From NCBI RefSeq assembly GCF_014705615.1, contig NZ_JACXJA010000007.1, forward strand, positions 248,001-312,000: a stretch of DNA of 64,000 bases. The letters are read 5' to 3'. Positions 5,056-23,940 of the stretch are shown here, one piece after another. The stretch is from Paenibacillus oceani. Its GTDB lineage: Bacteria; Bacillota; Bacilli; Paenibacillales; NBRC-103111. Numbering within the stretch: the stretch's first letter is position 1; every line of letters begins with the position of its first letter. The position numbers and the translations under genes were made by a program. The notes under the pieces were generated by a model that worked only from the letters and a program-made list of their open reading frames with translations, was not told the DNA's origin and did not search any database.

Positions 5056-5070
5056 AAAGTGGTGAACCGC

Positions 5071-5823: not shown

Positions 5824-6416
5824 TGCCAAAAACGATAGAATGCAAATTTACAGAGGATGAGACCAGGAGATGGGAGACGCTGCAGGCGGAACAACTGGTC
5901 GATGTCGTCAGCGGCGGTCAGGTGCAGCAACCGACGCGGGTGAAAACGTGCTGGGACGGGGATGCGGTTTATTTCCGGTTCGAATGTGTCGATGATCATA
6001 CGGTCGCCGATTATACGCAACGCGACGATCCGTTGTACGAACAGGATGTAGTGGAAGTATTTATAGATGAAGAGGGGACGGGGCGGCATTATATCGAGCT
6101 GGAGCTCAGCCCCTTGAACGTAGTGTTCGATGCCCGCGTGGACAACGAGGACGGGCGGATTCGCGTACATACGGAGTGGGATGCGGATGGAATGGAGACG
6201 AAGGTATGGAACGAAGGCGATCTTCGACTCTACGAGATCCGCTTGCCGTTTATCCATTTTAGCCGGCGGCCGGAAGCGGGCGCGTTGTGGAGCATCAACT
6301 TTTACAGAATCGACGAGGAGCGGGACAACAAACGGCATTACCAGGCATGGTCGCCGACGGGGGCGGTCAATTACCATATTCCGTCGCGATTCGGCACGTT
6401 ACGGTTCGTCAAGTAA
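5820..6416 (+). CDS. CBM9-like carbohydrate-binding protein
   Basis: A 198-residue protein with the pattern of the carbohydrate-binding family 9-like fold: WDGDAVYFRFECVDD near residue 45, then YEQDVVEVFIDEEG and YIELELSPLNVVFDAR, and a final WSPTGAVNYHIPSRFGTLRF. These correspond to the strand and calcium/sugar-site motifs of DUF1083/CBM9-type domains. There is no signal peptide, so it appears to be cytoplasmic, unlike CBM9 modules of xylanases. It overlaps the preceding stop by four bases. It may bind a sugar intermediate of the operon; no enzymatic activity is implied. Confidence 0.75.
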   Translation: MMPKTIECKFTEDETRRWETLQAEQLVDVVSGGQVQQPTRVKTCWDGDAVYFRFECVDDHTVADYTQRDDPLYEQDVVEVFIDEEGTGRHYIELELSPLNVVFDARVDNEDGRIRVHTEWDADGMETKVWNEGDLRLYEIRLPFIHFSRRPEAGALWSINFYRIDEERDNKRHYQAWSPTGAVNYHIPSRFGTLRFVK

Positions 6417-6449
6417 CCGTACGCCATGGGGGAGGAGACGGGGCAAATC

Positions 6450-7262
6450 ATGAAATCCTTCTTGTATCACGAGCATACGAGGGAAGAACTAACGGCCAAA
6501 GCCAAACAGGGTTATATGGCCGTCGTTCCGCTGGCGGCAACGGAACAGCACGGGCCGCATCTCCCCGTATACACCGACAGCCTGATCTGCGGGCATATCG
6601 CTAACCGATCGGTGCTTCGGGCGGCCTCTTCGGTTCCGCTCCTGCTCTGTCCGCTTATCCCGATCGGCTGCTCGCATCATCATCTCGCCTTCGGAGGAAC
6701 GCTGAGCTTCTCTTCGGCGACTTATATGCAGATGCTTCGGGATATCGGGGAAAGCCTCGTCGCGAACGGGTTCCGTAAAATTGTATTCCTTAACGGCCAC
6801 GGCGGAAACGATCCGATCATGCAGCAGACGGCGAGCGATCTGGCCGTTTCGCATCCGATCTGGACCGCCTCGGCTTCCTACTGGAGCGTTGCGAAGGAAG
6901 CGCTGCGGCTCGCCGATGCGGAACAAGTCGGCATGGTGCCGGGCCATGCGGGAGGGTTCGAGACGTCGGCGATCTTGGCCTTGCGCGAGGAGCTGGTTCA
7001 TACCGACAGGGCTTCCGAGGAACATCCCCAGCGTCCCTGGATTCTTTCGGGGCCGCCCGGAACATTTATTGGCAGGCACGGAGAACTGACCGGAGCGGAC
7101 GGATATACCGATTCCCCGCACCGGGCAACTGCGGAGAAAGGGCGCGTATATTTGGATGTAATCAGCCGTAGCGTCGCCGAATGGCTCGTCCGGACGTATC
7201 AATCGATGGAGACCGGGGAGAGGAGCCTGGCTGAGGGCGAAAAGCAGGAAAATGGCATATAA
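6450..7262 (+). CDS. Creatininase-family amidohydrolase
   Basis: About 270 residues with the metal-binding signature EQHGPHLPVYTDS (Glu/His/Asp ligands), then FLNGHGGND and PGHAGGFETS, all diagnostic of the creatininase/MftE/FAPy-deformylase family of divalent-metal amidohydrolases. ATG 6450 is preferred over ATG 6426 because only 6450 has a Shine-Dalgarno stretch (GGAGGAG) upstream. The family hydrolyses cyclic amides or formamides; here it closes an operon of sugar-type oxidoreductases, so a lactam- or lactone-like substrate is possible but not shown. A strong hairpin follows the stop. Confidence 0.85.
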   Translation: MKSFLYHEHTREELTAKAKQGYMAVVPLAATEQHGPHLPVYTDSLICGHIANRSVLRAASSVPLLLCPLIPIGCSHHHLAFGGTLSFSSATYMQMLRDIGESLVANGFRKIVFLNGHGGNDPIMQQTASDLAVSHPIWTASASYWSVAKEALRLADAEQVGMVPGHAGGFETSAILALREELVHTDRASEEHPQRPWILSGPPGTFIGRHGELTGADGYTDSPHRATAEKGRVYLDVISRSVAEWLVRTYQSMETGERSLAEGEKQENGI

Positions 7263-7328: not shown

Positions 7329-7703
7329 TTATGCTTTCAGTTTGGCGATCACGTCGATTTCGACAAGCAAGTCGAAATTGAGTTCGCAATAGACGAGGGT
7401 GCGCGCCGGGTAAGGGCAGGGGAAGAGGCGGGCGTAAATTTGGTTGAACAGCTCGTAGTGTTCCCGTTTGCATAGATATACGTTGACCTTTACCACGTCC
7501 CGCAGCGTTAATCCGGATTGAGACAAGATGCGTTCAATGTTCTGGACGGTTACGATCGTCTGATGTTCCAGATCGTCCGCCGTAATATCGCCTGTATGCG
7601 GATCCACTCCCCCTTGCCCGGATACGAACAGCAGCGATTCCGTAGGCGTAGCAGACGAGAAGGGAACTTCATCCATTCCGTATTTTTGTAACTTCGTATC
7701 CAA
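7329..7703 (-). CDS. ridA: RidA family (YjgF/YER057c/UK114) deaminase
   Basis: A 124-residue protein of usual RidA length. Typical features are LLFVSGQGGVDPHTG, the central IERILSQSGLTLRDVVKVNVYL, and the end PARTLVYCELNFDLLVEIDVIA, where the conserved Arg contacts the substrate carboxylate and Glu the water. RidA proteins hydrolyse reactive enamine/imine intermediates of PLP enzymes; catabolic paralogues exist. It lies about 115 bases downstream of the solute-binding protein gene on the same strand and may be cotranscribed with it. Confidence 0.88.
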   Translation of the reverse strand: MDTKLQKYGMDEVPFSSATPTESLLFVSGQGGVDPHTGDITADDLEHQTIVTVQNIERILSQSGLTLRDVVKVNVYLCKREHYELFNQIYARLFPCPYPARTLVYCELNFDLLVEIDVIAKLKA

Positions 7704-7817: not shown

Positions 7818-9176
7818 CTACCAGCCTAAAGCTTTGCGGGTCTCCAGAGCTTTGGTGTTGTAAGCCTCGATCACCGGGAATACGGTGCTGATATTGCCTC
7901 CTTCGCGGATCAGTTTATCGATGGAAGCGTTGACCTTGCCGGCCAAATCGCCAAGATTGACGGTGCGCGGATCGCTGGAGAAGCAGCACATTTTGGCGGA
8001 CAATTGCAGCGCCTCGACGTTTTTGCCTTTCCAGAGCGGCACCTCGCCGAAATATTTCTCCAACACGGGATCTTTGACGAACGCGCTGGAGCCGGTTTCA
8101 ATCATCGTTTTCTGGGCTTCGATATCGAACAGGAAGCTGATGTACAGGAACGCTTCCTCTTTATGTTTGGACGCTTTCGGAATCGAGATCGGGCCTGCCT
8201 GATGAATCGTCGCCTGCATCTTTTTGCCCTTCGGCATCGGCAGAACGTCCCACTCGAACTTCGCTTTCTGAATTGTCTCCAGCATCCAGTCCGCACCGAG
8301 CATGAACAGGACATTGCCTTTTATGAAAGCTTCTTCCGCTACGGCAGGGATACCCAAATCTTTTTGCTCTTGGACGGTAGGCTGAACGTGCCATTTGTTC
8401 GTCAAATCCTGAACCCATTTGAAGTCTTCCTGAATGGCCGGCGTATGGGCGACGCTCTGGGAAGAGTCTTTGTTCATATACCGGTAGTTATCGGCGCTTC
8501 CGTTCGCCATCGTCAGGATGCTCGTAAATTCATGGCCCATGCCGACCATGCCCCAATCGTTTGCCGCCGTGTTCGTCGCTTTTTTGGCCATCTCGAGGAA
8601 GTCGTTGTACGTCCAATCGTTTTTGGGCATCGTCATCCCGTATTTCTTCATCAAATCTTTGTTGACGATGATCCACATCGGGATGTCGGAGAAAGGGACG
8701 GTCCACTGTTTGCCGCCGGTTGCGAACGATTCCAGCAAGTTATCGATTTTGTTCGCGCTTTGAATTCTTTGATCTTTCTTGATGTAAGGAGTCAAATCTT
8801 CGAGCAGATCGCCGCTCATCCATTCCGATAACCCGTTGTCGAGAAAGACGAGGTCGGCCTGATCGCCGGCTATGACGTTTTTGATGATGCCCCCGTTGAT
8901 CTTCGTACTGGCGTCGATCGTAATCCAAGGGTACTTCTCGGTGAACTTGTCGAACAGCTTCTGGAAAGGTCCTGCGTTCCAGGTTAATACTTTTAAAGTA
9001 ACCGGGTCCTTTTTCTCAGGTGCGGCGGTATTCGGAGCCGGGGTGGTGCCGGCCGGATCGGCAGGTATCCCGGAGCTTCCGCCGGAACAAGCGGCTAATA
9101 AAGGCAGGAAGGTGAGGACCAGGATGAACATGCTGATCAGCGCGAATTGCCGTGAACGCTTTTTACGGAATTTCAT
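7818..9176 (-). CDS. Family 1 extracellular solute-binding lipoprotein (sugar ABC importer)
   Basis: A 452-residue protein starting at ATG 9176, which has GGAGGCG upstream; the longer frame to 9209 has no such site. The N-terminus is a lipoprotein signal: KKRSR, a hydrophobic stretch, then the lipobox LLAAC. The mature part has family 1 features (LKVLTWNAGPFQKLFDKFTEKYPWI, DLVFLDNG, PFSDIPMWIIVNKDLMKKYG). It has no permease on its own strand. It is divergently transcribed from an ATPase/permease operon that holds two permease pairs, so it likely delivers substrate to one of them. Confidence 0.9.
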   Translation of the reverse strand: MKFRKKRSRQFALISMFILVLTFLPLLAACSGGSSGIPADPAGTTPAPNTAAPEKKDPVTLKVLTWNAGPFQKLFDKFTEKYPWITIDASTKINGGIIKNVIAGDQADLVFLDNGLSEWMSGDLLEDLTPYIKKDQRIQSANKIDNLLESFATGGKQWTVPFSDIPMWIIVNKDLMKKYGMTMPKNDWTYNDFLEMAKKATNTAANDWGMVGMGHEFTSILTMANGSADNYRYMNKDSSQSVAHTPAIQEDFKWVQDLTNKWHVQPTVQEQKDLGIPAVAEEAFIKGNVLFMLGADWMLETIQKAKFEWDVLPMPKGKKMQATIHQAGPISIPKASKHKEEAFLYISFLFDIEAQKTMIETGSSAFVKDPVLEKYFGEVPLWKGKNVEALQLSAKMCCFSSDPRTVNLGDLAGKVNASIDKLIREGGNISTVFPVIEAYNTKALETRKALGW

Positions 9177-9542: not shown

Positions 9543-9571
9543 TTTACGTGATTATTTTATTTTGCTATGAT
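9543..9571 (+). promoter_or_regulatory. Sigma-A promoter of the composite ABC operon
   Basis: TTTACG (9543-9548), a 17-base spacer, TATGAT (9566-9571). The start would fall near 9578, giving a leader of about 45 bases before ATG 9624. Confidence 0.6.
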
Positions 9572-9574
9572 TTA

Positions 9575-9587
9575 TTCATGTATAGGA
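9575..9587 (+). promoter_or_regulatory. Shared motif, copy B (candidate operator)
   Basis: TTCATGTATAGGA, one mismatch from copy A at 9464-9476. It overlaps the expected start site of the plus-strand operon, a position suited to repression. Confidence 0.35.
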
Positions 9588-9623
9588 AAAGTTTTTAAGA
9601 TTTGAATGTGGGGGTAGGTCCGT

Positions 9624-10757
9624 ATGGGAAGCGTTGCATTCAACCACGTGTATAAGTACTACAAGGGGGAAGCGAATCCGTCGGTCAACGATTTTCACCT
9701 GGATGTAGCGGACGGGGAGTTCCTTGTCTTGGTCGGACCTTCGGGATGCGGCAAATCCACGACCCTTCGGATGCTCGCCGGCCTGGAGGAAGTATCGCAG
9801 GGCGATATCTACATAGACGGCAAATTCATCAACTACGTATCCCCGAAAAATCGCGATATTGCGATGGTTTTCCAAAACTATGCCCTGTATCCGAATATGA
9901 CTGTGTTTGAAAATATGGCGTTAGGCTTGCAGCTTCATAAGGTGGCGAAGCACGAGATCGAGCAGCGGGTCAGCCGGGCGGCCAAGATGCTGGAGATCTC
10001 GCATTTCCTGACGAAGCGGCCCGGTCAGCTGTCCGGCGGGCAGAAGCAGCGCGTAGCGTTGGGGCGTGCCCTCGTGCGGGAGCCGCAAGTGTTTCTGATG
10101 GATGAGCCGCTCTCGAATCTGGACGCCAAGCTCCGGACGCAGACCCGTGTGGAGATCAGCAAGCTGCACAGCGAGCTGCGAACGACGATGGTGTATGTCA
10201 CCCACGATCAGACGGAAGCGATGACGATGGGAACGCGGATCGTCGTGATGGAGAAAGGCAAGATCCAGCAGGTGGCCCCGCCCCAGCACTTGTATGACCA
10301 TCCGAATAACATGTTCGTAGCCGGATTTATCGGCACCCCGCAGATGAACTTTATACCGGGGGCGATCGTATCGGAACACAACGTTTTTTATTTTGAGAAC
10401 AGGCGGCTGAAAATACGGGTGCCGGAAAGCCGCTGCGCCCAAATTGCCGCAGCCCGGACGAATTTGCGCCAAGTCGTGCTCGGCATCCGGCCGGAATATG
10501 TGCTGAGCGAGTCTTGGGCGCTCGAACAGTATCCGGATTGGCGAATAACCGCCATCGTCGATTCGAGGGAACCGATGGGCTCCAACACGTTTCTGCATGC
10601 CAAGTCGGGGGACGATACGTTCATCTCACGAGCGGAAGCGCATACACCGATTCAGCCCGGCGATACGGTATCGCTTGTCGTGCGTATGGATCGGGCGCAT
10701 TTCTTCGACTCGGAAAGCGGAGTTTCCTTTGCGGCGCAGGGGGATCTTCGATCATGA
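9624..10757 (+). CDS. MalK/UgpC-type sugar ABC transporter ATPase
   Basis: A 377-residue ATPase: Walker A GPSGCGKST near residue 40, Q-loop VFQNYALYPNMTV, signature LSGGQKQR, Walker B VFLMDEPLSNLD and H-loop YVTHDQTEA. The C-terminal ~140 residues form the OB-type regulatory domain of MalK-like ATPases, with LGIRPEY. The start follows a G-rich site (GGGGGTAGG). It is the only ATPase of an operon containing four permeases, so it probably energises both pairs; MalK/MsmX-type ATPases are known to serve several transporters. The last four bases overlap the start of the next gene. Confidence 0.95.
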   Translation: MGSVAFNHVYKYYKGEANPSVNDFHLDVADGEFLVLVGPSGCGKSTTLRMLAGLEEVSQGDIYIDGKFINYVSPKNRDIAMVFQNYALYPNMTVFENMALGLQLHKVAKHEIEQRVSRAAKMLEISHFLTKRPGQLSGGQKQRVALGRALVREPQVFLMDEPLSNLDAKLRTQTRVEISKLHSELRTTMVYVTHDQTEAMTMGTRIVVMEKGKIQQVAPPQHLYDHPNNMFVAGFIGTPQMNFIPGAIVSEHNVFYFENRRLKIRVPESRCAQIAAARTNLRQVVLGIRPEYVLSESWALEQYPDWRITAIVDSREPMGSNTFLHAKSGDDTFISRAEAHTPIQPGDTVSLVVRMDRAHFFDSESGVSFAAQGDLRS

Positions 10758-13756
10758 GCCGGCGCTGGAGAAGAAGCGGACGTATCTTGTTCGGCACGTT
10801 AGCAGTGTGCGGGATCGCATGGATCTTCTGGCGCTCGTCATCCGCGGAGCCTGCCAGCTTCCCGGTTGTCGCCCAGTCGGACATCCGTCTGTCTGCCGCG
10901 GCCGCGGACCGGCAGCCGGTCTCTTACGTGTTGTGGCAGCGCAGCAGCGAATTCAGCCGGTTCCAGCCGGCCGGGACATCGGGGGTCCGCGTGCTCGCGG
11001 CCGAATACAGCGGGATGTCGCCGGATGCCGGCGTCCAGCGCCGCCGGGATGACGCGACGAAGGCGGATATCGTGGAATGGACCCATGCGAAAGGCTGGCT
11101 CGAATGGAACGTGGAGGTGCCGGAGGACGGACTGTACGATCTGATGATCGAGTATGCGCCTATGAAAGGAAGCTTCTCGGAGATCGTCCGGGGCGTTCAG
11201 ATCGACGGCAAATATCCGTTCGTCGAAGCGGGGCGGATCGTCCTGGACCGGCAGTGGAGAGACGCCAAGTATCCGTACGACCGCAATGGGATCGGCAATG
11301 AGATCCGTCCGGTGCAGGAGGAAAGAACCGGCTGGCAGACCGCGCGCATAACCGATTATTCGCTCTCCTCGGAGCCGCTGCGCTGGGCGCTGACCAAGGG
11401 CACGCATACGATCCGGCTGGTCGGAGTGAAAGAGCCGGTTGCCTTGTATTCGCTTACACTCGCTTCGCCCGAGAAGCTGCCGGCTTACGCCGAATACGTC
11501 GGCCGGCATCCGGCCGGCAGCGGGCCGCAGAAGGACTGGTATCACCGGTACGAAGCAGAACAATATCTGCAGAAGTCTGCGGTCAGTACCCGAACGTTAA
11601 GCGTGGCGGAGCCGCTGGTCTCCCCGGATGCGAAAGGCAAAATAACGTACAACGCGCTCGGAGGCACTTCGTGGGAAAAGGCGGGCCAGTCGGTCGAATG
11701 GGAGATTGCCGTACCGGAGACCGGTTATTACGCAATCGATCTGAAGTATTTTCAAGGCTATAACGGGAATGCGTCCGTGTACCGGACGGTGCTGATCGAC
11801 GATCGGGTACCGTTCCGGGAAATGCTGCATTACCGCTTCGCCCCGAACCGCGCTTTGGAGATCAAACCGCTTGCGGACCCGGACGGAGAGCCGTACTTGT
11901 TCCATCTGACCGAGGGCACGCACCGGCTTAAGCTGGTCGCGGATAATTCGATCGTCCGCCCTGCGGTCGAGGCGTTGCATGAAATTAGACAACGGGTCAT
12001 GTCGATCGAGAAGGAGATCCGGGCGATCTCCGGCAACTACGGCTTCGGCGCTGATCAGAACATCGACACCGCTCGGACATGGGAGATTAAGAAATTCGAT
12101 CCGGAGATCGAAAACAAGCTGCAATCCGTCATCGATGAGATGGAGGTCGTCCGCGACTACTTGCTCGGACTGAACCAGGCGGTTACCGATCCGACTACGG
12201 CTCTGAGCGCGCTGATCGACCTGATCCGGTCGCTTAAGGAAGACGTCAACGATATTCCGAATCAGGTGACTGCCTTCTCGGATATCGTGTCAGGCATCGG
12301 TACCTGGATCAAACCGATGGAAAGCCAGGCGCTGCAGCTCGATTATATCGTCGTGCGAACCCCGCAGACGAACCCGCCGTTCCAGATCCCGAACGGTTGG
12401 GACAAGGTGCAGTATACGGCGGTGAATTTCGCCCGCTCCTTCTTCGAGAATTACGATACGAACGAGCTGAACGACGAGAACGCCCTGACGATCTGGGTGC
12501 AGCGCGGACGGGACTACGTCGATTTGCTGCAATCGCTGATCGAGCAGGAATTTACTCCGCAGACGGGCATTAAAGTGAATGTGAATCTGATCCCGAATCA
12601 GAACGTGCTGCTGATGGGCAATGCGGCAGGCGATCAGCCGGATCTGGCGCTTGGCGTCGGGATGGAGACGCCGGTCGACTTCGCCATGCGCGGTGCGGCG
12701 GAAGACTTGTCGCAGTATGACGGGTTCGAGGAAGTGATCAAACGGTTTAATCCCGGGATCATGCGATCGTATAACTACGGAGGGGGCGTATACGGGCTGC
12801 CGGAGACCCAGACATACAACATGATGTTTTACCGGACCGACATCTTCGAGCAGTTGGGCATCCAGCCGCCGGATACGTGGGACGATCTGATGCGTTTGCT
12901 GCCGACCTTGCAGGAGAGAGGCATGTCGTTTAAGTATCCGAGAAAAATCGACGGTACGATCCACTCCAACTTGACGACGTCGGGCGCCTACAGCCTGCAC
13001 TATGCGCTGCCCTTTTATCAGCAGGGAGCGGAGTTTTATACGGAAGACGGCTTGCAGACGGAGCTGACCAGCACGGAGGGGCTGGCCGCGTTCAAGCAAT
13101 ATACGGAGTGGTTCAGCAAATACAGCCTGCCGCAGGAAGTTCCAGCCTTCATCAACCATTTCCGGTATGGGGATATGCCGATCGGGATCAGCGATTTTAT
13201 GCTGAACATTCAACTGACGGTCGCCGCTCCCGAGCTCGCGGGACACTGGAAGATGGTTCCCGTCCCGGGCATCCGGCAGCCGGACGGCACCGTGGTGCGA
13301 TGGGCGCCGCAGGAAACGACGTCGGCTTTTATAATGAAGCAGAGCAAGCGCCAGGAAGAGGCGTGGAAGTTTCTGGAATGGTGGACGTCGGGTAGTGTCC
13401 AGAGCCGGTACGGCAACGATATCGAATCGTATGCCGGCATCGAGTACCGCTGGTATACGGCGAACGTGGCCGCGATGCAGACGCTGCCCTGGTCCGACGA
13501 CGACTTGAAGGCGTTGAACGAACAAGACCGGTGGGCCAAAAACGTGCCGTACGTTCCGGGTTATTATTTTCTGACCCGCGAGATGGATTTTGCCTGGATC
13601 AATACGGTCATCGGCGGAAAACCGGCGCGGGAGACGCTCGGCAAATCCGAAATGTCGCTGCAGCGGGAAATGAGGCGCAAGCAGGAGGAGTTCGGCCTCA
13701 TGCCGGACGACAATCTGCAAGTAACGCCATACAACCAGCCTTACGGAAGGGAGTAA
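10754..13756 (+). CDS. Giant membrane-anchored solute-binding protein with two CBM-like modules (1000 aa)
   Basis: The start is ATG 10754, overlapping the ATPase stop. Order: a basic N-terminus and one hydrophobic segment (~8-26) with no lipobox, so a membrane anchor; two beta-sandwich, carbohydrate-binding-like modules (~60-255 and ~270-405) sharing the pattern W.v.vPE.GyY.i...y; a helical linker (~405-510); then a family 1 binding-protein domain (~575-975) with LTIWVQRGRDYVDLLQSLIEQEF, QPDLALGVG and YGLPETQTYNMMFYRTDIFEQLG. Ordinary family 1 proteins are about 450 residues. The extra modules could hold a polymer near the importer. Substrate unknown. Confidence 0.85.
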   Translation: MSRRWRRSGRILFGTLAVCGIAWIFWRSSSAEPASFPVVAQSDIRLSAAAADRQPVSYVLWQRSSEFSRFQPAGTSGVRVLAAEYSGMSPDAGVQRRRDDATKADIVEWTHAKGWLEWNVEVPEDGLYDLMIEYAPMKGSFSEIVRGVQIDGKYPFVEAGRIVLDRQWRDAKYPYDRNGIGNEIRPVQEERTGWQTARITDYSLSSEPLRWALTKGTHTIRLVGVKEPVALYSLTLASPEKLPAYAEYVGRHPAGSGPQKDWYHRYEAEQYLQKSAVSTRTLSVAEPLVSPDAKGKITYNALGGTSWEKAGQSVEWEIAVPETGYYAIDLKYFQGYNGNASVYRTVLIDDRVPFREMLHYRFAPNRALEIKPLADPDGEPYLFHLTEGTHRLKLVADNSIVRPAVEALHEIRQRVMSIEKEIRAISGNYGFGADQNIDTARTWEIKKFDPEIENKLQSVIDEMEVVRDYLLGLNQAVTDPTTALSALIDLIRSLKEDVNDIPNQVTAFSDIVSGIGTWIKPMESQALQLDYIVVRTPQTNPPFQIPNGWDKVQYTAVNFARSFFENYDTNELNDENALTIWVQRGRDYVDLLQSLIEQEFTPQTGIKVNVNLIPNQNVLLMGNAAGDQPDLALGVGMETPVDFAMRGAAEDLSQYDGFEEVIKRFNPGIMRSYNYGGGVYGLPETQTYNMMFYRTDIFEQLGIQPPDTWDDLMRLLPTLQERGMSFKYPRKIDGTIHSNLTTSGAYSLHYALPFYQQGAEFYTEDGLQTELTSTEGLAAFKQYTEWFSKYSLPQEVPAFINHFRYGDMPIGISDFMLNIQLTVAAPELAGHWKMVPVPGIRQPDGTVVRWAPQETTSAFIMKQSKRQEEAWKFLEWWTSGSVQSRYGNDIESYAGIEYRWYTANVAAMQTLPWSDDDLKALNEQDRWAKNVPYVPGYYFLTREMDFAWINTVIGGKPARETLGKSEMSLQREMRRKQEEFGLMPDDNLQVTPYNQPYGRE

Positions 13757-13759
13757 CCT

Positions 13760-14746
13760 ATGGAACCCGTACAACTGTCTAAGGCCGCTACGCTGCCGCC
13801 GGGCGAGACGAGAACCCCGGCTCCTAAGTCGATAGTGAGAATCAAACGATTTTTACGGGAATGCTGGCGCGACCGATTGTCGTATTTATTTCTGGCTCCC
13901 TTTCTCATCTGCTTTGCCTGTTTTATTATCGTTCCGGTGCTGATGGCGGCTTTGCTTAGCGTCACTTCCTTTAACGGAATCGAGTTTCCGCGATTGATCG
14001 GAGCGAGCAACTTCGTCTACATGCTAACGCAGGACATCGTGTTTATGAAATACACGCTTCCGAATACGCTGAAATTCGCCATTATAGTAGGACCAGGCGG
14101 TTACATCCTATCGTTCGTATTCGCCTGGCTCATTCATCAGCTGCCCTCCGGCATCCGCGATTACTTCACGCTGGCGCTGTATGCGCCGTCCATGGTCGGG
14201 GGAGTGGCACTGTCGGTCGTCTGGGCGGCTACGTTCAGCGGCGACCGGGTCGGGTATTTGAACAATGTGCTGATGCGCCTGGGGTTTATCGAAGCTCCGC
14301 ATCTATGGCTGCAGGACCCGAAATATTTGATGACCATCATGATTGTCGTGACGTTATGGACCAGTATGGGGGTCGGGTTTCTCGCCATGCTCGGCGGGCT
14401 GCAAACCGTGAACAAGGAGCTGTACGAAGCGGGCAGAATCGACGGGATCAAGAACAGCTTGCAGGAAGTGTACTATATCACGATTCCGGCGATGAAGCCG
14501 CAGATGCTGTTCAGCGCGGTCATGGCGATCGTCGGCACGCTGAAGGCGGGGGCGATCTCGACCCAGCTCACGGGACTGACGATTACGCCGGACTATGCCG
14601 GACACCTCATCACGAACCATATCGACGACTACGCTTATTTGCGGTATGAATGGGGTTACGCTTCCTCGTTGTCCGTCGTGCTGCTGATCATGAGCTACGG
14701 CCTGATGAAGCTTAGCTACAAGCTGTTCGGATCAAAGGGGGAATAG
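13760..14746 (+). CDS. Sugar ABC permease (MalF-like), first pair
   Basis: A 328-residue protein with six predicted membrane helices and the EAA loop EAGRIDGIKNSLQEVYYITIP near residue 225, which docks to the ATPase. The N-terminus has a basic stretch, then YLFLAPFLICFACFIIVPVL as first helix, typical of the MalF/UgpA branch. It is preceded by GGAAGGGAG. It follows the giant binding protein by three bases and precedes its MalG-like partner by four. Confidence 0.92.
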   Translation: MEPVQLSKAATLPPGETRTPAPKSIVRIKRFLRECWRDRLSYLFLAPFLICFACFIIVPVLMAALLSVTSFNGIEFPRLIGASNFVYMLTQDIVFMKYTLPNTLKFAIIVGPGGYILSFVFAWLIHQLPSGIRDYFTLALYAPSMVGGVALSVVWAATFSGDRVGYLNNVLMRLGFIEAPHLWLQDPKYLMTIMIVVTLWTSMGVGFLAMLGGLQTVNKELYEAGRIDGIKNSLQEVYYITIPAMKPQMLFSAVMAIVGTLKAGAISTQLTGLTITPDYAGHLITNHIDDYAYLRYEWGYASSLSVVLLIMSYGLMKLSYKLFGSKGE

Positions 14747-14750
14747 CGGT

Positions 14751-15605
14751 ATGCTGCTTTCGATTCGCAAGCTCTCGTTCTCCCGGGTAGTGCTGGTCGG
14801 TTTCCTTGCCGCTGTGGCCGCGTTTATGCTCGTGCCGATTGTTTTTTTGTTTAATAACGCCTTCAAGCCGTTAAACGAGCTGTTTTTGTTTCCGCCGACG
14901 ATCTTCGTCAAGCACCCGACGATGCGCAATTTCGAGCAATTGCTGCTTCATACGTCGGCCGGACTCGTTCCGGCGACGCGATACTTGTTCAACAGCGTCC
15001 TCGTATCGGCGGTGTCCACCGTGTCCGTCATCCTCGTCAGCACGATGGCCGGTTATGTGCTTGCGAAGCACCGGTTTCATTTTAAAACGGCCATTATGGC
15101 CTTCATCTTGATCGCGCTTATGTTCGCTCCGGAGACCGTAGCGATCCCCCGCTATCTCGTCGTAAGCAGTTTAGGGCTGAAAAACACGTATCTCGCTCAT
15201 ATTTTGCCGTTTATCGCTTCGCCGGTCGCGGTGTTCCTGATGAAGCAATTTATCGACCAAATCCCGGACTCCTTGCTGGAAGCGGCCAAGCTGGACGGCG
15301 CCGGCGATCTGTACATCTTCTCGCGCATCGTTATTCCGCTCACGGCGCCGGCGGTGGCAACGGTCACTATCATTACGTTTCAGGCCGTGTATCTGGATGT
15401 GGAAACCTCGACGCTGTACACGACGAAAGAAACGATGAAGACGCTGGCCTTTTATGTGACCAGCCTCACGACGAATGTCCCCGGCGTTGCGGCGGCCAGC
15501 ATGGCGGCGGCGGTCGGACTGCTGATGTTTTTGCCGAATCTGATCCTGTTCCTGCTGTTCCAGCGGAAAATGATCGAAACGATGCTGCATTCGGGTGTGA
15601 AGTAA
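14751..15605 (+). CDS. Sugar ABC permease (MalG-like), first pair
   Basis: A 284-residue protein with six predicted helices and the EAA loop EAAKLDGAGDLYIFSRIVIP around residue 180. The length and the segment LKHPTMRNFEQLL-like after helix 1 fit the MalG/UgpE branch. GGGGGAATAG precedes ATG 14751. It ends with KMIETMLHSGVK, a usual MalG-type tail. It forms the heterodimeric channel with the upstream permease. Confidence 0.92.
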   Translation: MLLSIRKLSFSRVVLVGFLAAVAAFMLVPIVFLFNNAFKPLNELFLFPPTIFVKHPTMRNFEQLLLHTSAGLVPATRYLFNSVLVSAVSTVSVILVSTMAGYVLAKHRFHFKTAIMAFILIALMFAPETVAIPRYLVVSSLGLKNTYLAHILPFIASPVAVFLMKQFIDQIPDSLLEAAKLDGAGDLYIFSRIVIPLTAPAVATVTIITFQAVYLDVETSTLYTTKETMKTLAFYVTSLTTNVPGVAAASMAAAVGLLMFLPNLILFLLFQRKMIETMLHSGVK

Positions 15606-15606
15606 T

Positions 15607-17688
15607 ATGGGGAAAAAGAGAGGGCTTCCGATGATCCGACGCGCCGCATCCGGTGGGAGGATAACCACTGTGACTATGCTCACCGTCCTATGTCTGCTCG
15701 GCTTGCTGGTCCCGCAGGCGGCATGGGCCAAGCTGCCCTACAGCACGTATTATGTCGATCCGGTCAACGGCGAGATGAATCAGATTCAGCCTTTATATGT
15801 ACCGGACCGCATTATCGACGGGAACCTGATGAAGAAGCCGTTCTCGGCGCCAAGCGACCTGTTCATAGCGGACAACGACCATGTCTACATCGCCGACACG
15901 GGGAACGATCGCATCGTCGAGCTCGGTCCGTCCGGACAATTCATCCGTTCGATCGGCGAGGAGGAGGGGCCGGGCAAGCTGAGCCGTCCGGAGGGCGTGT
16001 TCGTCGCTGCAGACGGTATGATCTACGCGGCCAATACCGCCGGGGAGACGATTGTGAAGTATGCGCCGGACGGCAGCCTGTTGAAGGTGTTCGCCAAGCC
16101 GGACTCCAGCGTGCTGGGGAAAGACTACTTTTTTATTCCGACCAAACTGGTCGTGGATAACCGCGGGTTTCTGTATGTCGTCATTAAAGACACCTATCAG
16201 GGCTTGCTGCGGATGAATCCGGAAGGCGAGTTTACCGGGTTTTTCGGGGCGAACAAAGCGAAGCTGAGCTGGATGGACCGGCTGAAGCGGACGGTGCTCA
16301 ATCAGGTGCAGTTGGCTCAGGAGGTCGCGAAGCGCCCGGACTCGATCGCAAACGTCACCTTGTCCGAAGACGGCTTTTTGTTCACGACGACCGCAACCGC
16401 ACTTAACGACGGGCAGATCAAAAAGCTGAACGCCGGAGGCTCCGACGCGTTCAAAAACAAAGAGTTCGGGGAAACGCGGCTGGTCGATATGACCGTGGAC
16501 GGCCACGGCTTTTTGTACGGGATGAACCGGCAGTTTAATGAAATCTCGATCTACGACCCGATGGGCGGCGTGTTGTTTTATTTCAGCGAGGGCGACAAAA
16601 ACGCCCGGCAGATCGGGGTAACGAGCTTTGCCAGCAGTATCGCAATCAATGGACGAAACGAAATATGGCTGGCCGACAGCCGCTCCAATCTGATTCACGT
16701 CTTTAAGCGAACGAGCTTCGGCGACGCTTTTATGACAGCGGCCCATCATTACTACGAGGGCGATTATGTCAAAAGCAAGGCGTACTGGGAAGAAGTCGTC
16801 CGTCAGAACGGGATGCTTAACATCTCGTTTAACGGATTGGGCAAAATCGCCCTGCACGAGAAACGGTATGACGACGCGCTGTATTATTTCAAGCAATCGT
16901 ACGACCCCGAAGGATATTCGGACGCCTTCTGGAATTTGCGGTACGAATGGATTCAGGACCACTTCTTCATAGCGGCTCTGGCAACGGCTGCCGGGATCGG
17001 AGCGCTCGTTTTTCTCGGGAGGAAGGGAAGGGCGTTCGTCCGCAGCCGGACATGGCCCCGGGGGTTGGAGCGTTATGCGGCCGAGCTTAAGGATGCGATT
17101 TATTTGATTTTCCATCCGTATGAAGGGTTTTACCGGTTGAAGGACCGGCAAATTTCCTGGTTCGTGCTGCTGCTGATCGGCTTTCTTGCCGTCGGGGTCC
17201 ATCTGCTGTCCATATTCGGCTCCGGTTTTATCGCGTATCCGTTCGATCTCGGCAGCTATAACCTGAAATGGTCTTTGGGCCTGCTCCTGGTGCCGTGGGC
17301 GACGTGGGTAATTGCGAACTACCTGGTCAGCTCCGTGAAGGGCGGGGAAGGGCGGTTTCGTGAAGTGCTGCAGGCCAGCACCTATGCGATCGTTCCTTAT
17401 ATGGTGATGCAGATTCCGGCGATTGCGCTCTCCAACGTCGCTGTGCTCGAAGAATGGATATTGATCGACCTGATTCATCAGCTCATGTGGATCTGGATCG
17501 TACTGCTGCTGTTCGTTATGACCCAGGTCATTCATAATTTCGACTTTACCGAAGCGATCAAAAATGCAGGCATCACCGTATTTACGATCGGGGTTATGTG
17601 GGTGTTTGCGGTCATCATGACCGGGCTCGGTATGAACCTGTACGATTTTCTGGAACAGATCTACCGGGAGGTGACGTTTCATGGTTAG
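15607..17688 (+). CDS. NHL-propeller/TPR/YIP1 membrane protein
   Basis: Up to 693 residues. A signal sequence (TVLCLLGLLVPQAAWA) is followed by NHL-type propeller repeats (~82-371; for example VYIADTGNDRIVELGPSGQFI and IYAANTAGETIVKYAPDG), a short TPR-like helical stretch (~375-440; AAHHYYEGDYVKSKAYWEEV), a membrane helix (~453-472) and a YIP1-type multi-helix membrane domain (~508-688). The propeller therefore faces outside. Starts at 15607, 15631 (better SD) and GTG 15670 are possible. It ends eight bases inside the next gene. NHL domains bind ligands or glycans; a transport-associated scaffold is inference. Confidence 0.8.
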   Translation: MGKKRGLPMIRRAASGGRITTVTMLTVLCLLGLLVPQAAWAKLPYSTYYVDPVNGEMNQIQPLYVPDRIIDGNLMKKPFSAPSDLFIADNDHVYIADTGNDRIVELGPSGQFIRSIGEEEGPGKLSRPEGVFVAADGMIYAANTAGETIVKYAPDGSLLKVFAKPDSSVLGKDYFFIPTKLVVDNRGFLYVVIKDTYQGLLRMNPEGEFTGFFGANKAKLSWMDRLKRTVLNQVQLAQEVAKRPDSIANVTLSEDGFLFTTTATALNDGQIKKLNAGGSDAFKNKEFGETRLVDMTVDGHGFLYGMNRQFNEISIYDPMGGVLFYFSEGDKNARQIGVTSFASSIAINGRNEIWLADSRSNLIHVFKRTSFGDAFMTAAHHYYEGDYVKSKAYWEEVVRQNGMLNISFNGLGKIALHEKRYDDALYYFKQSYDPEGYSDAFWNLRYEWIQDHFFIAALATAAGIGALVFLGRKGRAFVRSRTWPRGLERYAAELKDAIYLIFHPYEGFYRLKDRQISWFVLLLIGFLAVGVHLLSIFGSGFIAYPFDLGSYNLKWSLGLLLVPWATWVIANYLVSSVKGGEGRFREVLQASTYAIVPYMVMQIPAIALSNVAVLEEWILIDLIHQLMWIWIVLLLFVMTQVIHNFDFTEAIKNAGITVFTIGVMWVFAVIMTGLGMNLYDFLEQIYREVTFHG

Positions 17689-19909
17689 ACGGCTATGGCC
17701 TGTGCATCCGAAAAGGCGCATCCAACTGATCGCGGCAACTGCGGCGGTTCTGGCGATCGTATTGCTGTGGGCGTTCAACCGGGATACGCTGCCGAAGCTG
17801 GAGGCGATGAATATCGAAGTTCCTGCCGCCGCCAGGCTGTCCGTGGCGCAAGGAGAGGATTGGAAGCCGGCGGCGGTCGATCCGGAAGGCTACGCGACGG
17901 TGGCAGCGAACAGCCGATTCTCGCTGCGGCTCGATCCGAAGACGAGTCAGATCGCCATGCTGAATAAATCAAACGGCTACTTGTGGCGAAGCAATCCGCC
18001 GGCCGGCCAACTTGCCGGGGAGACGGTAAAGGGGACGCTGCTGGAAAATATGCAGTCTCCCTATATTCTCGAATACACGTCGGGAACGGAGACGAAACGT
18101 TCGGTCACGAATGCGCTCGATCCGAAAATGACGACCCGGTACACCCGAATCGGAACGGACGGCATTCAGGTAACCTATACCCACACTGAGCTGCACATCT
18201 CTTTCGTGCTGCAGTACCGGATAACCGACAGCGGGTTCGAAGTGTCCGTCCCCAGCTCGGGAATTGCCGAAACGGGAGAAGCCCGATTGTTTGCGCTTAA
18301 TGTGCTGCCTTTTTTCGGAGCCGTTTCGAAGGCGGAAGAGACCGGTTATTTATTCGTTCCGGACGGTCCCGGGGGGCTCGTCTACTATGACCGCAAGCGG
18401 CCGGCGATCGGAACCGTCTACGAGTTCCCGATCTACGGGGAAGACCCGTCGCATCTGAAAGAGCGGGAGAGGAAGACGCCGCGCGAGCAGATCGGCTTTC
18501 CGGTATTCGGCCTGAAGCGCGGACCACAAGCGTTCGCCGCGATCGTTAAGGAGGGGCAATATACCGCCTCGGTCAAAGCGGTCCTGCCCGGCAACATCTC
18601 GAGCTACAATACGGTGAGCGCCAACTTCAGCTACAGGCAGGAGTACGGGCGCAAAGTGAGCGGGATTACGAAGGATGTCGTCGGCACGATTCAAAAAAAC
18701 CGGAATGAGGACGACCGGCGCGTGGAATACCGGCTGTTGTCCGGCGATGCCGCAAGCTACGTCGGGATGGCGCAGGCGTACCGCGCATATTTGAAGGAAG
18801 GGGGCGCGCTCGCCGCCGAGCTGAAACCGGTCGATCAAGTCCCGATGCAGCTGTCGTTTATAGGCGGAGCGACGAAGCCCCGATTCGGCGGCAGCCGATA
18901 CGAGACGGCGACCACGTTCGCACAAGCGGAGAGCATGGTGAACGAACTGATGCGGCTGGGTGCGGGCAACATCCGCGTGACGTATCAGGGCTGGCAGCAT
19001 AGCGGATACGCCCGGTCCGATCAACGCTTCCCCGTCGTGCCGGAGATTGGAGGAACCGAGGGAGCCGGGCGATTCGTCCAGGCCATGCACGATAAAGGCA
19101 TCCAGGTGCTGTTCGAGGATTATATGTCGTGGAAACAACCGGATTACAGCCGCTTCCAAGTCAAGTCGGACGGCATCCGCGGGATCGATACGGCCGTCTT
19201 GCAAGACCGCGATGGCCGATTCATCGTTGATCCGGTGAAAGCTGTTCGCGGGCAAAAAGACGTCGTCGACCGGTTGAAGGAGCTCGGCGCGGACGGTATC
19301 CATTACGTCGAAGGCCCCGGCGATCAAGTGTTCAGCGACTACAATCCTTCCTCTCCCCTGGCGAGAAAGGATACCTCCTACTATTACCGGGAACTGCTTG
19401 ATTATGTCCGTAACCGGCTGGGGACGGTCGGAGTGGTCCGGGGCAATGACTATTCGCTCGGACACGTCAGCTTTATCGAAGAGCTGCCGTTCAGCTCCAG
19501 CTACGACCTGATGATCGACGAGACGGTGCCTTTTTACCCGATGGCGCTCCATGGGTCGGTGGAATATACGTCGGCGGCCGGTAATTTGCGGGACGTGTAT
19601 GACGAGCAGCTGCTGAAAGCGATCGAATACGGTGCCGTTCCGTATTTCAGGCTGACCTACTCGGAAAGCCGTGTCTTGAAGGACACCGATTACAGCCATA
19701 TCTACAGCGGGGAATATGCAGTCTGGAAAGACCGGATCATCGAGGAGTACCGGAAGTTCAATCAGCTCGCTGCCGTCTACCATCAACCGATGACCGGTCA
19801 CGAGCGGGTCTCGGAAGGGGTCTACAAGACGACCTATGCGGACGGAACGAGCGTGACCGTCAACTATAATACGAAACGATTCGACGTAACGAAAGGAGGA
19901 GGAGCCTAG
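17681..19909 (+). CDS. DUF5696-type membrane-anchored glycosidase-like protein
   Basis: A 742-residue protein with an N-terminal anchor (RIQLIAATAAVLAIVLLWAF), a beta-rich region to about residue 385 and then an apparent TIM-barrel part with strands such as NIRVTYQGWQHSG, GIQVLFEDYMSW, GADGIHYVEGPGDQ, VGVVRGNDYSLGH and YDLMIDETVPFYPM. The barrel pattern recalls glycoside hydrolases of the GH101/GH31 kind; acidic residues in the YVEG and MIDE strands are candidate catalysts, which is inference. I recognise it as the DUF5696 kind that occurs beside YIP1 proteins and sugar permeases. GGGAGGTGA precedes ATG 17681. Confidence 0.7.
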   Translation: MVRRLWPVHPKRRIQLIAATAAVLAIVLLWAFNRDTLPKLEAMNIEVPAAARLSVAQGEDWKPAAVDPEGYATVAANSRFSLRLDPKTSQIAMLNKSNGYLWRSNPPAGQLAGETVKGTLLENMQSPYILEYTSGTETKRSVTNALDPKMTTRYTRIGTDGIQVTYTHTELHISFVLQYRITDSGFEVSVPSSGIAETGEARLFALNVLPFFGAVSKAEETGYLFVPDGPGGLVYYDRKRPAIGTVYEFPIYGEDPSHLKERERKTPREQIGFPVFGLKRGPQAFAAIVKEGQYTASVKAVLPGNISSYNTVSANFSYRQEYGRKVSGITKDVVGTIQKNRNEDDRRVEYRLLSGDAASYVGMAQAYRAYLKEGGALAAELKPVDQVPMQLSFIGGATKPRFGGSRYETATTFAQAESMVNELMRLGAGNIRVTYQGWQHSGYARSDQRFPVVPEIGGTEGAGRFVQAMHDKGIQVLFEDYMSWKQPDYSRFQVKSDGIRGIDTAVLQDRDGRFIVDPVKAVRGQKDVVDRLKELGADGIHYVEGPGDQVFSDYNPSSPLARKDTSYYYRELLDYVRNRLGTVGVVRGNDYSLGHVSFIEELPFSSSYDLMIDETVPFYPMALHGSVEYTSAAGNLRDVYDEQLLKAIEYGAVPYFRLTYSESRVLKDTDYSHIYSGEYAVWKDRIIEEYRKFNQLAAVYHQPMTGHERVSEGVYKTTYADGTSVTVNYNTKRFDVTKGGGA

Positions 19910-20806
19910 ATGGTCAGCAAGACGGAACGGCGCCTGGGATACATCAAGCTTCTCCTGAAAGACTACGCCATCGGTTATCTCTTCATGCTGCCGTGGCTGG
20001 TCGGTTTTGCATGGTTCGTCGCGTTTCCGGTCGGCTGGTCGCTCTACAACAGCTTCAATAAAGTAACGCCGTCCAGCGGCAGCTTCAAGTACGAATGGGT
20101 GGGTCTCGACAATTACAAGCGAATGCTGGTGACGGATAACGCTTATCCGATCGTCCTGTTCTCGTTGTTTCAGGAGATGCTGATGATCATTCCGCTCATC
20201 CTGATCTTTTCGTTTTTCGTATCGCTGCTGCTGAATCAGAAGTTTCCCGGCCGGGGGCTGATGCGGGCGATCTTTTTTCTCCCGGTCTTATTTGCGACAG
20301 GGCAAGTGCTGCTGGAGCTGTTCGCGCAAGGCGCGGGGGAGATGCCGTTTCTCGAGCAGTACAACGTGGCTGCGATCGTCAAGCAGTATTTCAGCGAACG
20401 GACGGCGGCTACCGTGATGAATGTGCTGAGCCGGGCGGTCATTATATTATGGTACTCGGGCGTGCAGATCCTCATCTTCTTGGCCGGTTTCCAGACGATA
20501 TCCAGATCGATCTATGAAGCGATTCGGGTAGACGGCGCTTCCCCGTGGGAAAGCTTCTGGAAGATTACGTTTCCCGGCATGCTGCCCTTTATCGGGTTAA
20601 ACGCCGTATTTACGATCGTTGATCTGTTCACGTTCCCGTTTAATCCCGTGCTACAAATTGTCAAAAACAATATGTTCTCCCCGACCACGGGGTACGGATA
20701 TGCGAGCGCTCAGGCGTGGTTGTATTTCTTGCTCATCCTGATCCTGCTTGGCGTGACCGTGGGGCTGACGTATCGGGCGACGAAAGGAAGGGGCGAGCTG
20801 CGATGA
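19910..20806 (+). CDS. Sugar ABC permease (MalF-like), second pair
   Basis: 298 residues, six predicted helices, EAA loop EAIRVDGASPWESFWKITFP near residue 200. First helix: YLFMLPWLVGFAWFVAFPVGWSLYNSF. Start ATG 19910 follows AAAGGAGGAGGAG and is immediately after the upstream stop. This is a second, distinct MalF-type subunit in the same operon, not a duplicate of the first in obvious sequence. Confidence 0.92.
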   Translation: MVSKTERRLGYIKLLLKDYAIGYLFMLPWLVGFAWFVAFPVGWSLYNSFNKVTPSSGSFKYEWVGLDNYKRMLVTDNAYPIVLFSLFQEMLMIIPLILIFSFFVSLLLNQKFPGRGLMRAIFFLPVLFATGQVLLELFAQGAGEMPFLEQYNVAAIVKQYFSERTAATVMNVLSRAVIILWYSGVQILIFLAGFQTISRSIYEAIRVDGASPWESFWKITFPGMLPFIGLNAVFTIVDLFTFPFNPVLQIVKNNMFSPTTGYGYASAQAWLYFLLILILLGVTVGLTYRATKGRGELR

Positions 20807-21786
20807 GGTTGACGGAGCGATACCGGCAAGTGAGGCTGGAGGCGGTGAGATTCACGGAGAGCCGCCGGGCGCAGCGGGTAGGCAAGCTGCTGCTCGGTCC
20901 AAACGTGAATGACGGATACGTGGCAAAAACGGTGATCATCGTCTTGTTGTCGGTCATCGCCTTCCTTTACTTGAAACCGATTATTTACATGGTCTCCACC
21001 AGCGTGAAAAGTTTGGAAGACTTGATTGATCCCGTAGTCGGACTGATTCCCAGGAGCGTGCACAGCCAAAACTATATCGATGCGTGGAAAGGGCTCCGCT
21101 ACCCGGAAGCGTTTACTAACACGTTTATTATCGCTTTTTTCGGTTCCTTGTTCCAGGTGTTCTCCTGCGCTCTTACCGGGTATGCGCTGGCCCGCCTCCG
21201 GTTTCCGGGGAAATCGCTGTTTTTCGTCTTGATTTTAATTACGTTTCTCGTTCCGCCGGAAATTACGATCATCCCGCTGTATATGATTTTCAACAAGCTC
21301 GGCTGGCTGAACACGCCGCTCGTGTTTCTCGTGCCGGCTATACTGGGTCAAGGGATGCGCGGGGCATTGTTCATTATCATCTTCCGGCAGTTTTTCCTGT
21401 CCCAGCCGAAAGCGCTGGAGGAAGCGGCCAAGATGGACGGGGCATCCGTGTTCCGGTTGTTTTTCCGGATCATGATGCCGCTCGCCGGCTCCGCCTGCCT
21501 TGTCGTGTTTCTGTTCTCGTTCGTCTGGTATTGGAATATGCATTTCGAGCCGTCGATGTTTCTCAGCAAAGACTTCATTCCGCTGTCGCTGCGCCTGAAC
21601 GAGCTGTCGACCGAGCTGCTCGGGAACAAGTCGCTGAGCTTAAGCGTAGCCGTCGGAAAAGATCCGGTCTCGGAAGGGCCCAAGATGGCCGCCGCGTTTC
21701 TGATTATTTTGCCGCCGCTGCTCGTGTATTTCATCGCACAGCGCTGGTTTACGGAAGGAATCGAGCGTACGGGGCTGGTCGAATAG
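20803..21786 (+). CDS. Sugar ABC permease (MalG-like), second pair
   Basis: 327 residues from ATG 20803, in an ATGA overlap with the preceding permease (the frame is open further upstream but the overlap start fits best). Six predicted helices and the EAA loop EEAAKMDGASVFRLFFRIMMP near residue 210. The loop between the last two helices is longer than usual (FEPSMFLSKDFIPLSL...EGPKMAAAFL). It is the last gene of the composite operon. Confidence 0.92.
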   Translation: MRLTERYRQVRLEAVRFTESRRAQRVGKLLLGPNVNDGYVAKTVIIVLLSVIAFLYLKPIIYMVSTSVKSLEDLIDPVVGLIPRSVHSQNYIDAWKGLRYPEAFTNTFIIAFFGSLFQVFSCALTGYALARLRFPGKSLFFVLILITFLVPPEITIIPLYMIFNKLGWLNTPLVFLVPAILGQGMRGALFIIIFRQFFLSQPKALEEAAKMDGASVFRLFFRIMMPLAGSACLVVFLFSFVWYWNMHFEPSMFLSKDFIPLSLRLNELSTELLGNKSLSLSVAVGKDPVSEGPKMAAAFLIILPPLLVYFIAQRWFTEGIERTGLVE

Positions 21787-21845: not shown

Positions 21846-21965
21846 TTCGGGCCCCGCTTAGAACCGGTTGACTGGAGAAAAAGGACCTCGGCCTCCACAT
21901 TACAGTGGAAGTTGAGGTCCTTGTCCTTTCGACCGGGAAATGGGGATGTTCCCTGACATGCGAGC
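21846..21965. repeat. Dispersed hairpin repeat, copy 1
   Basis: The core is a long hairpin: left arm from AAGGACCTC (21881) to CTCCAC, loop ATTACA, right arm GTGGAAGTTGAGGTCCTT (to 21922), with a few G-U pairs. The flanks (CCCCGCTTA, then GGGAAATGGGGATGTTCCCT and CATGCGA) also match the copy at 46539. It lies after the composite operon and before the convergent IclR gene. The 21787-22032 gap holds nothing else I can recognise. Confidence 0.75.
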
Positions 21966-22032: not shown

Positions 22033-22803
22033 TTAATTTTGGCGGTATACCTTGTTGCTAAGCTCCTCGCACGAGCGTCTGATCCAATCGTGCACGTTCC
22101 CCCACACCTCGCCGGTAATGCGCACGACCGGGATAGAGATGCTGATCGAGGCGACCGCACGGTCGTCCATATCCTTGACCGCCCCGGCGACACAGTGTAC
22201 GCCGTCGACCGTCTCGCCCATGTTGTAGCCGAATTCCTGCTTGCGGACCTTGTCCAGCTCCTTGAGCAAGTCCGAGAAGGAGGAGATCGTCTTGCCCGTC
22301 ACTTTCTCCAATTCGTCGGTCGGGTACAAGGCGCGCAGTTCCTCCGCCGACAGATCGGCCAGCAAAATTTTGCCCGACGCGGTGGCATGCAGGGGCAGCG
22401 TTACGCCGAGACTCGGATTAAACCGGAGCGAATGCGTGCTTACCTTTTCTCCGATATATAAAAGCTGATTGCCGGTTCTTATCGATAAACTGACCGTCTC
22501 GTTCAGATTGTTGATAATCTTCTCGGCGATGTAGTTGAATTCTCCGGTTAAGCTGGCGTTGCGCATATAGCCGGAACGAATCGCAAACAATTTGTAGCCG
22601 ATGCGAAACTGCTTGCCGGACCGGTCTGTCTCCAAATATCCGCGGCTGAGCATGTTTTGCAAAATCAGATACGTGCTGCTGGAAGGCATGTTCAGATTTT
22701 TGGATATTTCCGTCAAATTGTACGAATCTTTCTCTCCGGTGAACAATTCGAAAATATCCAGGACGCGATCGGCAGATTTAACTTTTGGCGCTTGTTGTTC
22801 CAT
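22033..22803 (-). CDS. IclR-family transcriptional regulator
   Basis: 256 residues from ATG 22803, which has GGAGGG eight bases upstream; the longer frame lacks one. N-terminal winged helix (SADRVLDIFELFTGEKDSYNL...SSSTYLILQNMLSRGYLE) and C-terminal GAF-like effector domain (LPLHATASGKILLADLSAEE, VHCVAGAVKDMDD). IclR regulators respond to small carbon-catabolic effectors. It is convergent with the composite ABC operon, which makes that operon a plausible target. A perfect palindrome just upstream is a candidate autoregulatory operator. Confidence 0.92.
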   Translation of the reverse strand: MEQQAPKVKSADRVLDIFELFTGEKDSYNLTEISKNLNMPSSSTYLILQNMLSRGYLETDRSGKQFRIGYKLFAIRSGYMRNASLTGEFNYIAEKIINNLNETVSLSIRTGNQLLYIGEKVSTHSLRFNPSLGVTLPLHATASGKILLADLSAEELRALYPTDELEKVTGKTISSFSDLLKELDKVRKQEFGYNMGETVDGVHCVAGAVKDMDDRAVASISISIPVVRITGEVWGNVHDWIRRSCEELSNKVYRQN

Positions 22804-22824
22804 TGGATTCACCCTCCATAGAAA

Positions 22825-22846
22825 AGATTTCATAAATATGAAATCT
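22825..22846 (-). promoter_or_regulatory. Perfect palindrome upstream of IclR gene (candidate operator)
   Basis: Arms AGATTTCAT (22825-22833) and ATGAAATCT (22838-22846) around AAAT: nine perfect base pairs, directly before the ribosome binding site of the IclR gene. Size and location fit an IclR-type autoregulatory operator. Confidence 0.5.
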
Positions 22847-23810: not shown

Positions 23811-23940
23811 GATGATTTATGTAAGCGGTTTAAGCTATAATACAACCATACTGCGTGCTGTTCGTTTTGTTTATGGATAGAAATTGGAGTTATACCGGTT
23901 TCCATGGGGGATTTTGTTCAAGCATCTGGAGGGACCAACT

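Follow-up and report, generated by a model that had tools for sequence, protein, structure and literature searches.

In the textbook picture, an ABC importer combines a single receptor with a pair of channel subunits and a pair of ATPases. The locus described here carries a single ATPase gene together with two permease pairs, and it raises the question of whether these genes form one import system or several systems that happen to be neighbours. The locus lies in a stretch of 64,000 nucleotides of Paenibacillus oceani, referred to below as the window. Open reading frames with Pfam and NCBIfam assignments, in a genome of 8.05 Mb, gave an operon of eight adjacent genes on the + strand at 9624-21786, in the order MalK/UgpC-type ATPase, SBPbig, F1, G1, NHL-TPR-YIP1, DUF5696, F2 and G2. 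Our reading, to which we give a probability of about 0.62, is that the eight genes encode one functional two-channel import system. The features of the locus are as follows.

7818-9176, - strand: divergent lipoprotein solute-binding protein (SBP), Pfam SBP_bac_1 9e-28, lipobox LLAACSG
9543-9571, + strand: promoter-like element TTTACG-17-TATGAT with TG, from a consensus scan, upstream of the operon
9624-10757, + strand: MalK/UgpC-type ABC ATPase, 377 aa, Walker A GPSGCGKS, LSGGQ, OB and TOBE domains
10754-13756, + strand: SBPbig, 1000 aa, N-terminal membrane anchor, two CBM6/35-like beta domains, coiled coil, C-terminal SBP domain
13760-14746, + strand: F1, MalF-type permease of pair 1, EAA loop EAGRIDG
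14751-15605, + strand: G1, MalG-type permease of pair 1, EAA loop EAAKLDG
15607-17688, + strand: NHL-TPR-YIP1 protein, signal peptide-like N-terminus, NHL propeller, TPR, YIP1 membrane domain
17681-19909, + strand: DUF5696 protein (PF18952), single N-terminal anchor, GH129/GH101-like ectodomain
19910-20806, + strand: F2, MalF-type permease of pair 2, EAA loop EAIRVDG
20803-21786, + strand: G2, MalG-type permease of pair 2, EAA loop EAAKMDG
22033-22833, - strand: IclR-family regulator, KdgR/BhcR-like, convergent to the operon

The preliminary description of this DNA had called the eight genes coupled, had given each a family and had taken the divergent lipoprotein to be a binding protein, and all three statements were borne out. 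The junctions, all on the + strand, range from an 8 bp overlap to a 4 bp gap. The ATPase and SBPbig genes overlap by 4 bp, gaps of 3 bp (SBPbig/F1), 4 bp (F1/G1) and 1 bp (G1/NHL) follow, NHL-YIP1 and DUF5696 overlap by 8 bp, DUF5696 and F2 abut with no gap, and F2 and G2 overlap by 4 bp. SBPbig was taken to start at ATG 10754, within a longer mechanical ORF, and G2 at ATG 20803 rather than at GTG 20716 of the mechanical ORF. The score of the promoter-like element in the consensus scan was at chance level for the region, as was that of the terminator scan.

Pfam and NCBIfam confirmed each family assignment. The ATPase matches ABC_tran and OB_MalK/TOBE_2 and falls in the UgpC subfamily NF008653 (449 bits against a cut-off of 432). 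Both permease pairs belong to the BPD_transp_1 family and carry the EAA loop, as CUT1 type I permeases do; F2 scored just below the Pfam cut-off (24.1 against 26.4 bits), yet it is a clear clade in the permease tree described below. The NHL-TPR-YIP1 protein matches NHL, a weak TPR and Yip1 (PF04893), the last above its curated cut-off (40.4 against 28.6 bits), and the DUF5696 protein matches its own Pfam family at E=1e-168. The C-terminal end of SBPbig is SBP_bac_1. By profile, its CBM-like domains matched CBM6/CBM35-type structures as well as cycloisomaltooligosaccharide glucanotransferase, and CBM_35 in Pfam was weak. In a structural model of modest confidence (pLDDT 66), used for the SBP domain only, the predicted fold of this domain resembles oligosaccharide-binding proteins.

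To place the operon among its relatives, the DNA around 126 distinct DUF5696 loci from Bacillota was analyzed. The preliminary description had made its proposal depend on conserved co-occurrence of these genes, and the complete set (SBPbig, F1, G1, NHL, YIP, DUF5696, F2, G2) was present in 106 of the 126 loci, always on a single strand. The order of genes was identical in 105 of these 106 cassettes; in the remaining one, two modules were swapped. Module A consists of SBPbig and F1/G1, and module B consists of YIP1 (with NHL), DUF5696 and F2/G2. Every complete cassette has two distinct permease pairs, and in this it departs from the single pair that defines a CUT1 importer. NHL and YIP1 are fused in the window and in some other loci and are two adjacent genes in many relatives. 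Three loci (L104, L108 and L115) have module B first, and their sequence breaks off within SBPbig or F1. Nearly all of the other incomplete loci were interrupted by the ends of contigs or stretches, or were split into modules A and B. The split modules are often about 25-35 kb apart on one contig, and thus a single transcript is not required. The genome of the window itself has four DUF5696 genes, each adjoining a copy of NHL-YIP1, with the same gene order at all four loci.

The association was also examined at the level of whole genomes, 105 from the family and 398 from the phylum, with DUF5696 and an alignment of the N-terminal half of SBPbig as queries. The SBPbig query was limited to this half so that the common SBP domain was left out, and a match was counted as strong at E below 1e-50. 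Among the 105 family genomes, DUF5696 and SBPbig were both present in 64 and both missing in 40; DUF5696 occurred alone in one, a 70% complete draft, and SBPbig alone in none. In the 398 phylum genomes, SBPbig was present wherever DUF5696 was, and SBPbig stood alone only in two matches on contigs some 4 kb long and in the divergent family f15. In addition, loci with module B alone had module A elsewhere in the same genome. Membership was not extended to the f15 genomes, whose SBPbig-like and DUF5696-like proteins are shorter; two of their loci (L122, 8302-13233, and L130, 6184-10144) encode a divergent DUF5696-like protein and, some 2 kb away, a short SBPbig-like one, with no other cassette genes nearby. 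In three single-contig assemblies (G022, G078 and G035), several genes of the cassette are split over neighbouring frames, through either decay or sequencing errors. At the level of genes the evidence is strong, and we take the cassette to be a variant of the sugar ABC importer that is widespread and has gone unrecognised. The open-licence papers searched, on DUF5696 and on YIP1 or double permeases in connection with ABC transport, gave no description of it, and DUF5696 was not mentioned in them. The layout looks to have been overlooked among bacterial sugar importers.

A permease tree was built from 92 cassette permeases and 10 other CUT1 permeases. F1, F2, G1 and G2 were each monophyletic, as ancient clades of their own (support 0.995, 0.987, 0.931 and 0.92, respectively), and neither F1 with F2 nor G1 with G2 formed an exclusive clade. 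An origin of one pair by recent duplication of the other was thus rejected. The EAA loop motif was found in 104 F1, 101 G1, 88 F2 and 85 G2 proteins, each out of 106 cassettes. Since the loops are kept in all four subunits, both channels look, from their sequences, to be coupled to an ATPase. The distance matrices of the cassette proteins correlate at 0.84-0.94 over the 106 cassettes, against a permutation maximum of 0.17. In order to remove the species tree, paralogous cassettes were compared inside six genomes, where r was 0.87-0.95 and 0 of 2000 within-genome shuffles gave a value as high. Thus, the cassettes evolve as units.

The next question is which receptor serves which channel. Separate SBP genes were counted for the 99 complete cassettes with at least 19 kb of sequence, and one was found within 4.5 kb in 74 of them and none in 25. 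These 74 cassettes have the SBP upstream only (35), downstream only (25), on both sides (3), inside the cassette (1) or on the opposite strand (10), the last group including the layout seen in the window. In loci with module B only, an SBP lies just downstream of G2 on the same strand in nine of ten. None of the four stretches with module A only has an SBP beside it on the same strand; in one of them (L126) an SBP lies on the other strand, 5.8 kb away. Ten candidate SBP genes were confirmed by Pfam. This distribution supports the pairing of SBPbig with F1/G1 and of the lipoprotein SBP with F2/G2, and the two receptors and two channels counted at the outset fit, in the split loci, one receptor per channel. 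The lipoprotein at 7818-9176 is thus the candidate receptor for the second channel; its relatives adjoin all 12 intact cassettes of its clade (L001-L012), at varying positions. Three split loci encode small tandem lipoproteins, each about 240 aa long and bearing a GxExGGD-like motif, in the interval from module B to its SBP (L056, 16179-17608; L058, 16208-18423; L062, 16157-18470).

An ATPase gene is adjacent in 61 of the 106 complete cassettes and missing in 45. The genome of the window has about 150 BPD_transp_1 genes and six MalK/UgpC ATPases above the curated cut-off, three of which sit in DUF5696 cassettes, and the cassette ATPases group with ATPases of other species' cassettes. The cassette on contig C56 of this genome has no adjacent ATPase. 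An orphan MalK-type ATPase of the cassette clade (C56, 319941-321050; genome G000, L150) lies about 190 kb from it and might serve it. Shared ATPases are known in Bacillus subtilis, and one ATPase of the MsmX/MsmK type can drive several permease pairs (PMC7658222, PMC5730181); MsmX has the signature residues D77, R104, E110 and K154 (PMC7658222). By position count from the Walker A lysine, rather than by alignment with MsmX, the window ATPase keeps two of the four, D and E, and has H for R and Q for K. The cassette ATPase differs from MsmX in that its gene is part of the cassette in 61 of 106 loci and in that it follows the cassette phylogeny. Two channel pairs with one ATPase gene, which the preliminary description had singled out, are indeed present; this is no peculiarity, since one ATPase for several permease pairs is normal in Bacillota.

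The foremost alternative, which comes near to the view of the preliminary description, is that the cassette comprises a pair of ordinary CUT1 importers, each for a different product of one substrate, which are induced together by it and share only transcription and the ATPase. It draws on the loci in which the modules are split or swapped, on the linkage of the separate SBP to module B and of SBPbig to module A, and on the shared ATPases of Bacillus subtilis (PMC7658222, PMC5730181). However, the near-absolute co-retention of both modules over many genera exceeds the usual effect of shared induction, the parts of A and B diverge in correlation even among paralogues of one genome, and typical CUT1 operons of the same genome are not doubled likewise. 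For these reasons we regard two separate importers as unlikely, though a serious contender, and favour a single system with two channels.

The DUF5696 protein has a single N-terminal anchor followed by an ectodomain of GH129/GH101-like fold, as judged from an AlphaFold model (pLDDT 77, pTM 0.80) and a profile match to GH129-type structures down to 4e-16. The best PDB match of the predicted structure is the GH129 enzyme NagBb (5wzn; E 1.4e-26, TMt 0.67). NagBb and the GH129-like 3,6-anhydro-D-galactosidase ZgGH129 are the best fold matches (TMt up to 0.70) and the only convincing PDB sequence matches; DUF5696 differs from both as an anchored partner in an ABC operon with a variable Asp column. 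PF11308 (GH129) did not match the DUF5696 protein or any other in its own genome. A PF11308 search of 299 genomes also gave 0 matches, with the controls silent too, so that absence is not shown.

This likeness is the basis for supposing that DUF5696 is an active, anchored glycosidase which trims the captured polymer before import, as had first been suggested. Two further points are in keeping with it: Asp553 and Glu649 are nearly invariant, and some members outside Paenibacillaceae have Asp at or beside the putative nucleophile column (RDLG). The catalytic Asp, D435 in NagBb and D486 in ZgGH129 (PMC5698469), corresponds to column 545, which was extrapolated 8-13 residues beyond the end of two agreeing HMM alignments and which holds Gly in 22, Asp in 13, Tyr in 9 and other residues in the rest of 64 sequences, with Gly in the window. 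In addition, there is no conserved Glu near the acid/base position. Since the nucleophile column is variable and an acid/base Glu is not conserved, a role in glycan binding or handling is favoured, with activity possible in some clades; trimming is doubtful, and an active glycosidase in the family at large is improbable.

The notion that only F1/G1 imports, and that module B is an accessory which uses an ABC fold for glycan movement or release, sensing or complex assembly, could appeal to the NHL, TPR, YIP1 and GH129-like domains of module B in every cassette, to the unconserved nucleophile column and to the 25 of 99 cassettes with no nearby separate SBP, but F2 and G2 keep the EAA coupling loops and the six-helix CUT1 topology, and a separate SBP accompanies nine of the ten split-off B modules, as is expected of a genuine importer; we regard this notion as the least likely of the alternatives.

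According to the two-channel reading, the eight genes would be one heritable CUT1-type carbohydrate ABC import system with two distinct channels that are co-inherited obligatorily, and not chance neighbours. In module A, the CBM-like domains and coiled coil of SBPbig would hold a glycan or glycan-coated surface near the membrane, and its solute-binding domain would feed F1/G1. Module B, with NHL-TPR-YIP1, DUF5696 and F2/G2, would be fed by a separate, usually nearby lipoprotein SBP (here 7818-9176). The NHL propeller and the GH129-like ectodomain of DUF5696 may act as anchored receptor or handling parts, and in most members the latter would not be a classical glycosidase. The MalK-type ATPase would drive both channels, as the cassette copy where present and otherwise probably as a shared one. 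We infer a glycan substrate, a physical association of the parts and a division of labour, in which the two channels most likely import distinct products of one and the same glycan or distinct portions of it. More tentatively, and at well below even odds, F1/G1 and F2/G2 might form one physical complex, held by YIP1, fed by an anchored "glycan tray" of SBPbig, NHL and a catalytically dead GH129-like protein, and run from one power supply.

The cassette has in common with CUT1 importers such as MalEFGK2, UgpABCE and LplABC the MalF/MalG-type permeases with EAA loops, the MalK/UgpC-type ATPase and an SBP_bac_1 receptor. It differs from them in that two different permease pairs are always kept together, that the receptor is anchored, 1000 residues long and equipped with two CBM-like domains, and that two more proteins anchored in the membrane accompany it. 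Yip1 (PF04893) and NHL-repeat domains are recognised by Pfam, and here they are fused with TPR and tied into an import operon. A second, distinct channel pair and three anchored surface proteins have been kept with the first pair across many genera. If the two channels do form one physical complex, the cassette would amount to an ABC importer whose two translocation pores are dissimilar yet share a power supply, a kind that is common across Bacillota and so far undescribed. The cassette would give a functional context to DUF5696 and to bacterial NHL-YIP1 proteins, and it raises the question of paired channels for the uptake of complex plant glycans in Bacillota.

Genomes carry up to ten or more copies of the cassette, beside diverse glycan-degrading enzymes. 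The flanks of relatives encode GH42, GH95, GH106, GH2, GH43, GH38, GH8, GH67, GH26, pectic acid lyase and alginate lyase, together with AraC, LacI and two-component regulators. In this the cassettes of these relatives resemble Gram-positive PULs, which have an ABC importer beside glycoside hydrolases and regulators; they differ in their double channel with YIP1 and DUF5696 partners and in enzymes that vary between copies. Because the CAZyme families differ from locus to locus, the cassette looks like a general import chassis, with substrates that differ between copies. The flanks of the window copy encode FAD_oxidored, SDR, CBM9, creatininase, RidA and IclR, with no recognised glycoside hydrolase or polysaccharide-degrading enzyme among the genes scanned, and thus its substrate may not be a plain polysaccharide. 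The preliminary description had proposed a surface machine that captures, trims and imports one polymer class. Of that proposal, a conserved, co-inherited glycan-import system with coupling loops and two receptors is supported; its trimming step and, for the cassette in general, its single polymer class are weakened.

Various subsets of FAD_oxidored, SDR, creatininase, RidA, a propeller-like protein of 753 aa and IclR are common to the window copy and the loci nearest to it. In the window, a catabolic set at 375-7262 and 7329-7703 (the propeller-like protein, FAD_oxidored, SDR, CBM9, a creatininase family protein and RidA) is partly conserved in L001-L003, and in the four most closely related loci (L001, L002, L003 and L013) the cassette is likewise followed by an IclR gene. 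Between the operon and the convergent IclR gene lies a near-perfect palindrome of 73 bases (21864-21936; -46 kcal/mol, z -7). It was rejected as the terminator of the operon because about 40 copies with 79-93% identity occur elsewhere in the genome, as in a REP-like dispersed repeat. Farther downstream of the cassette, at 23884-25881, the window encodes a DUF2334 protein fused to FG-GAP repeats.
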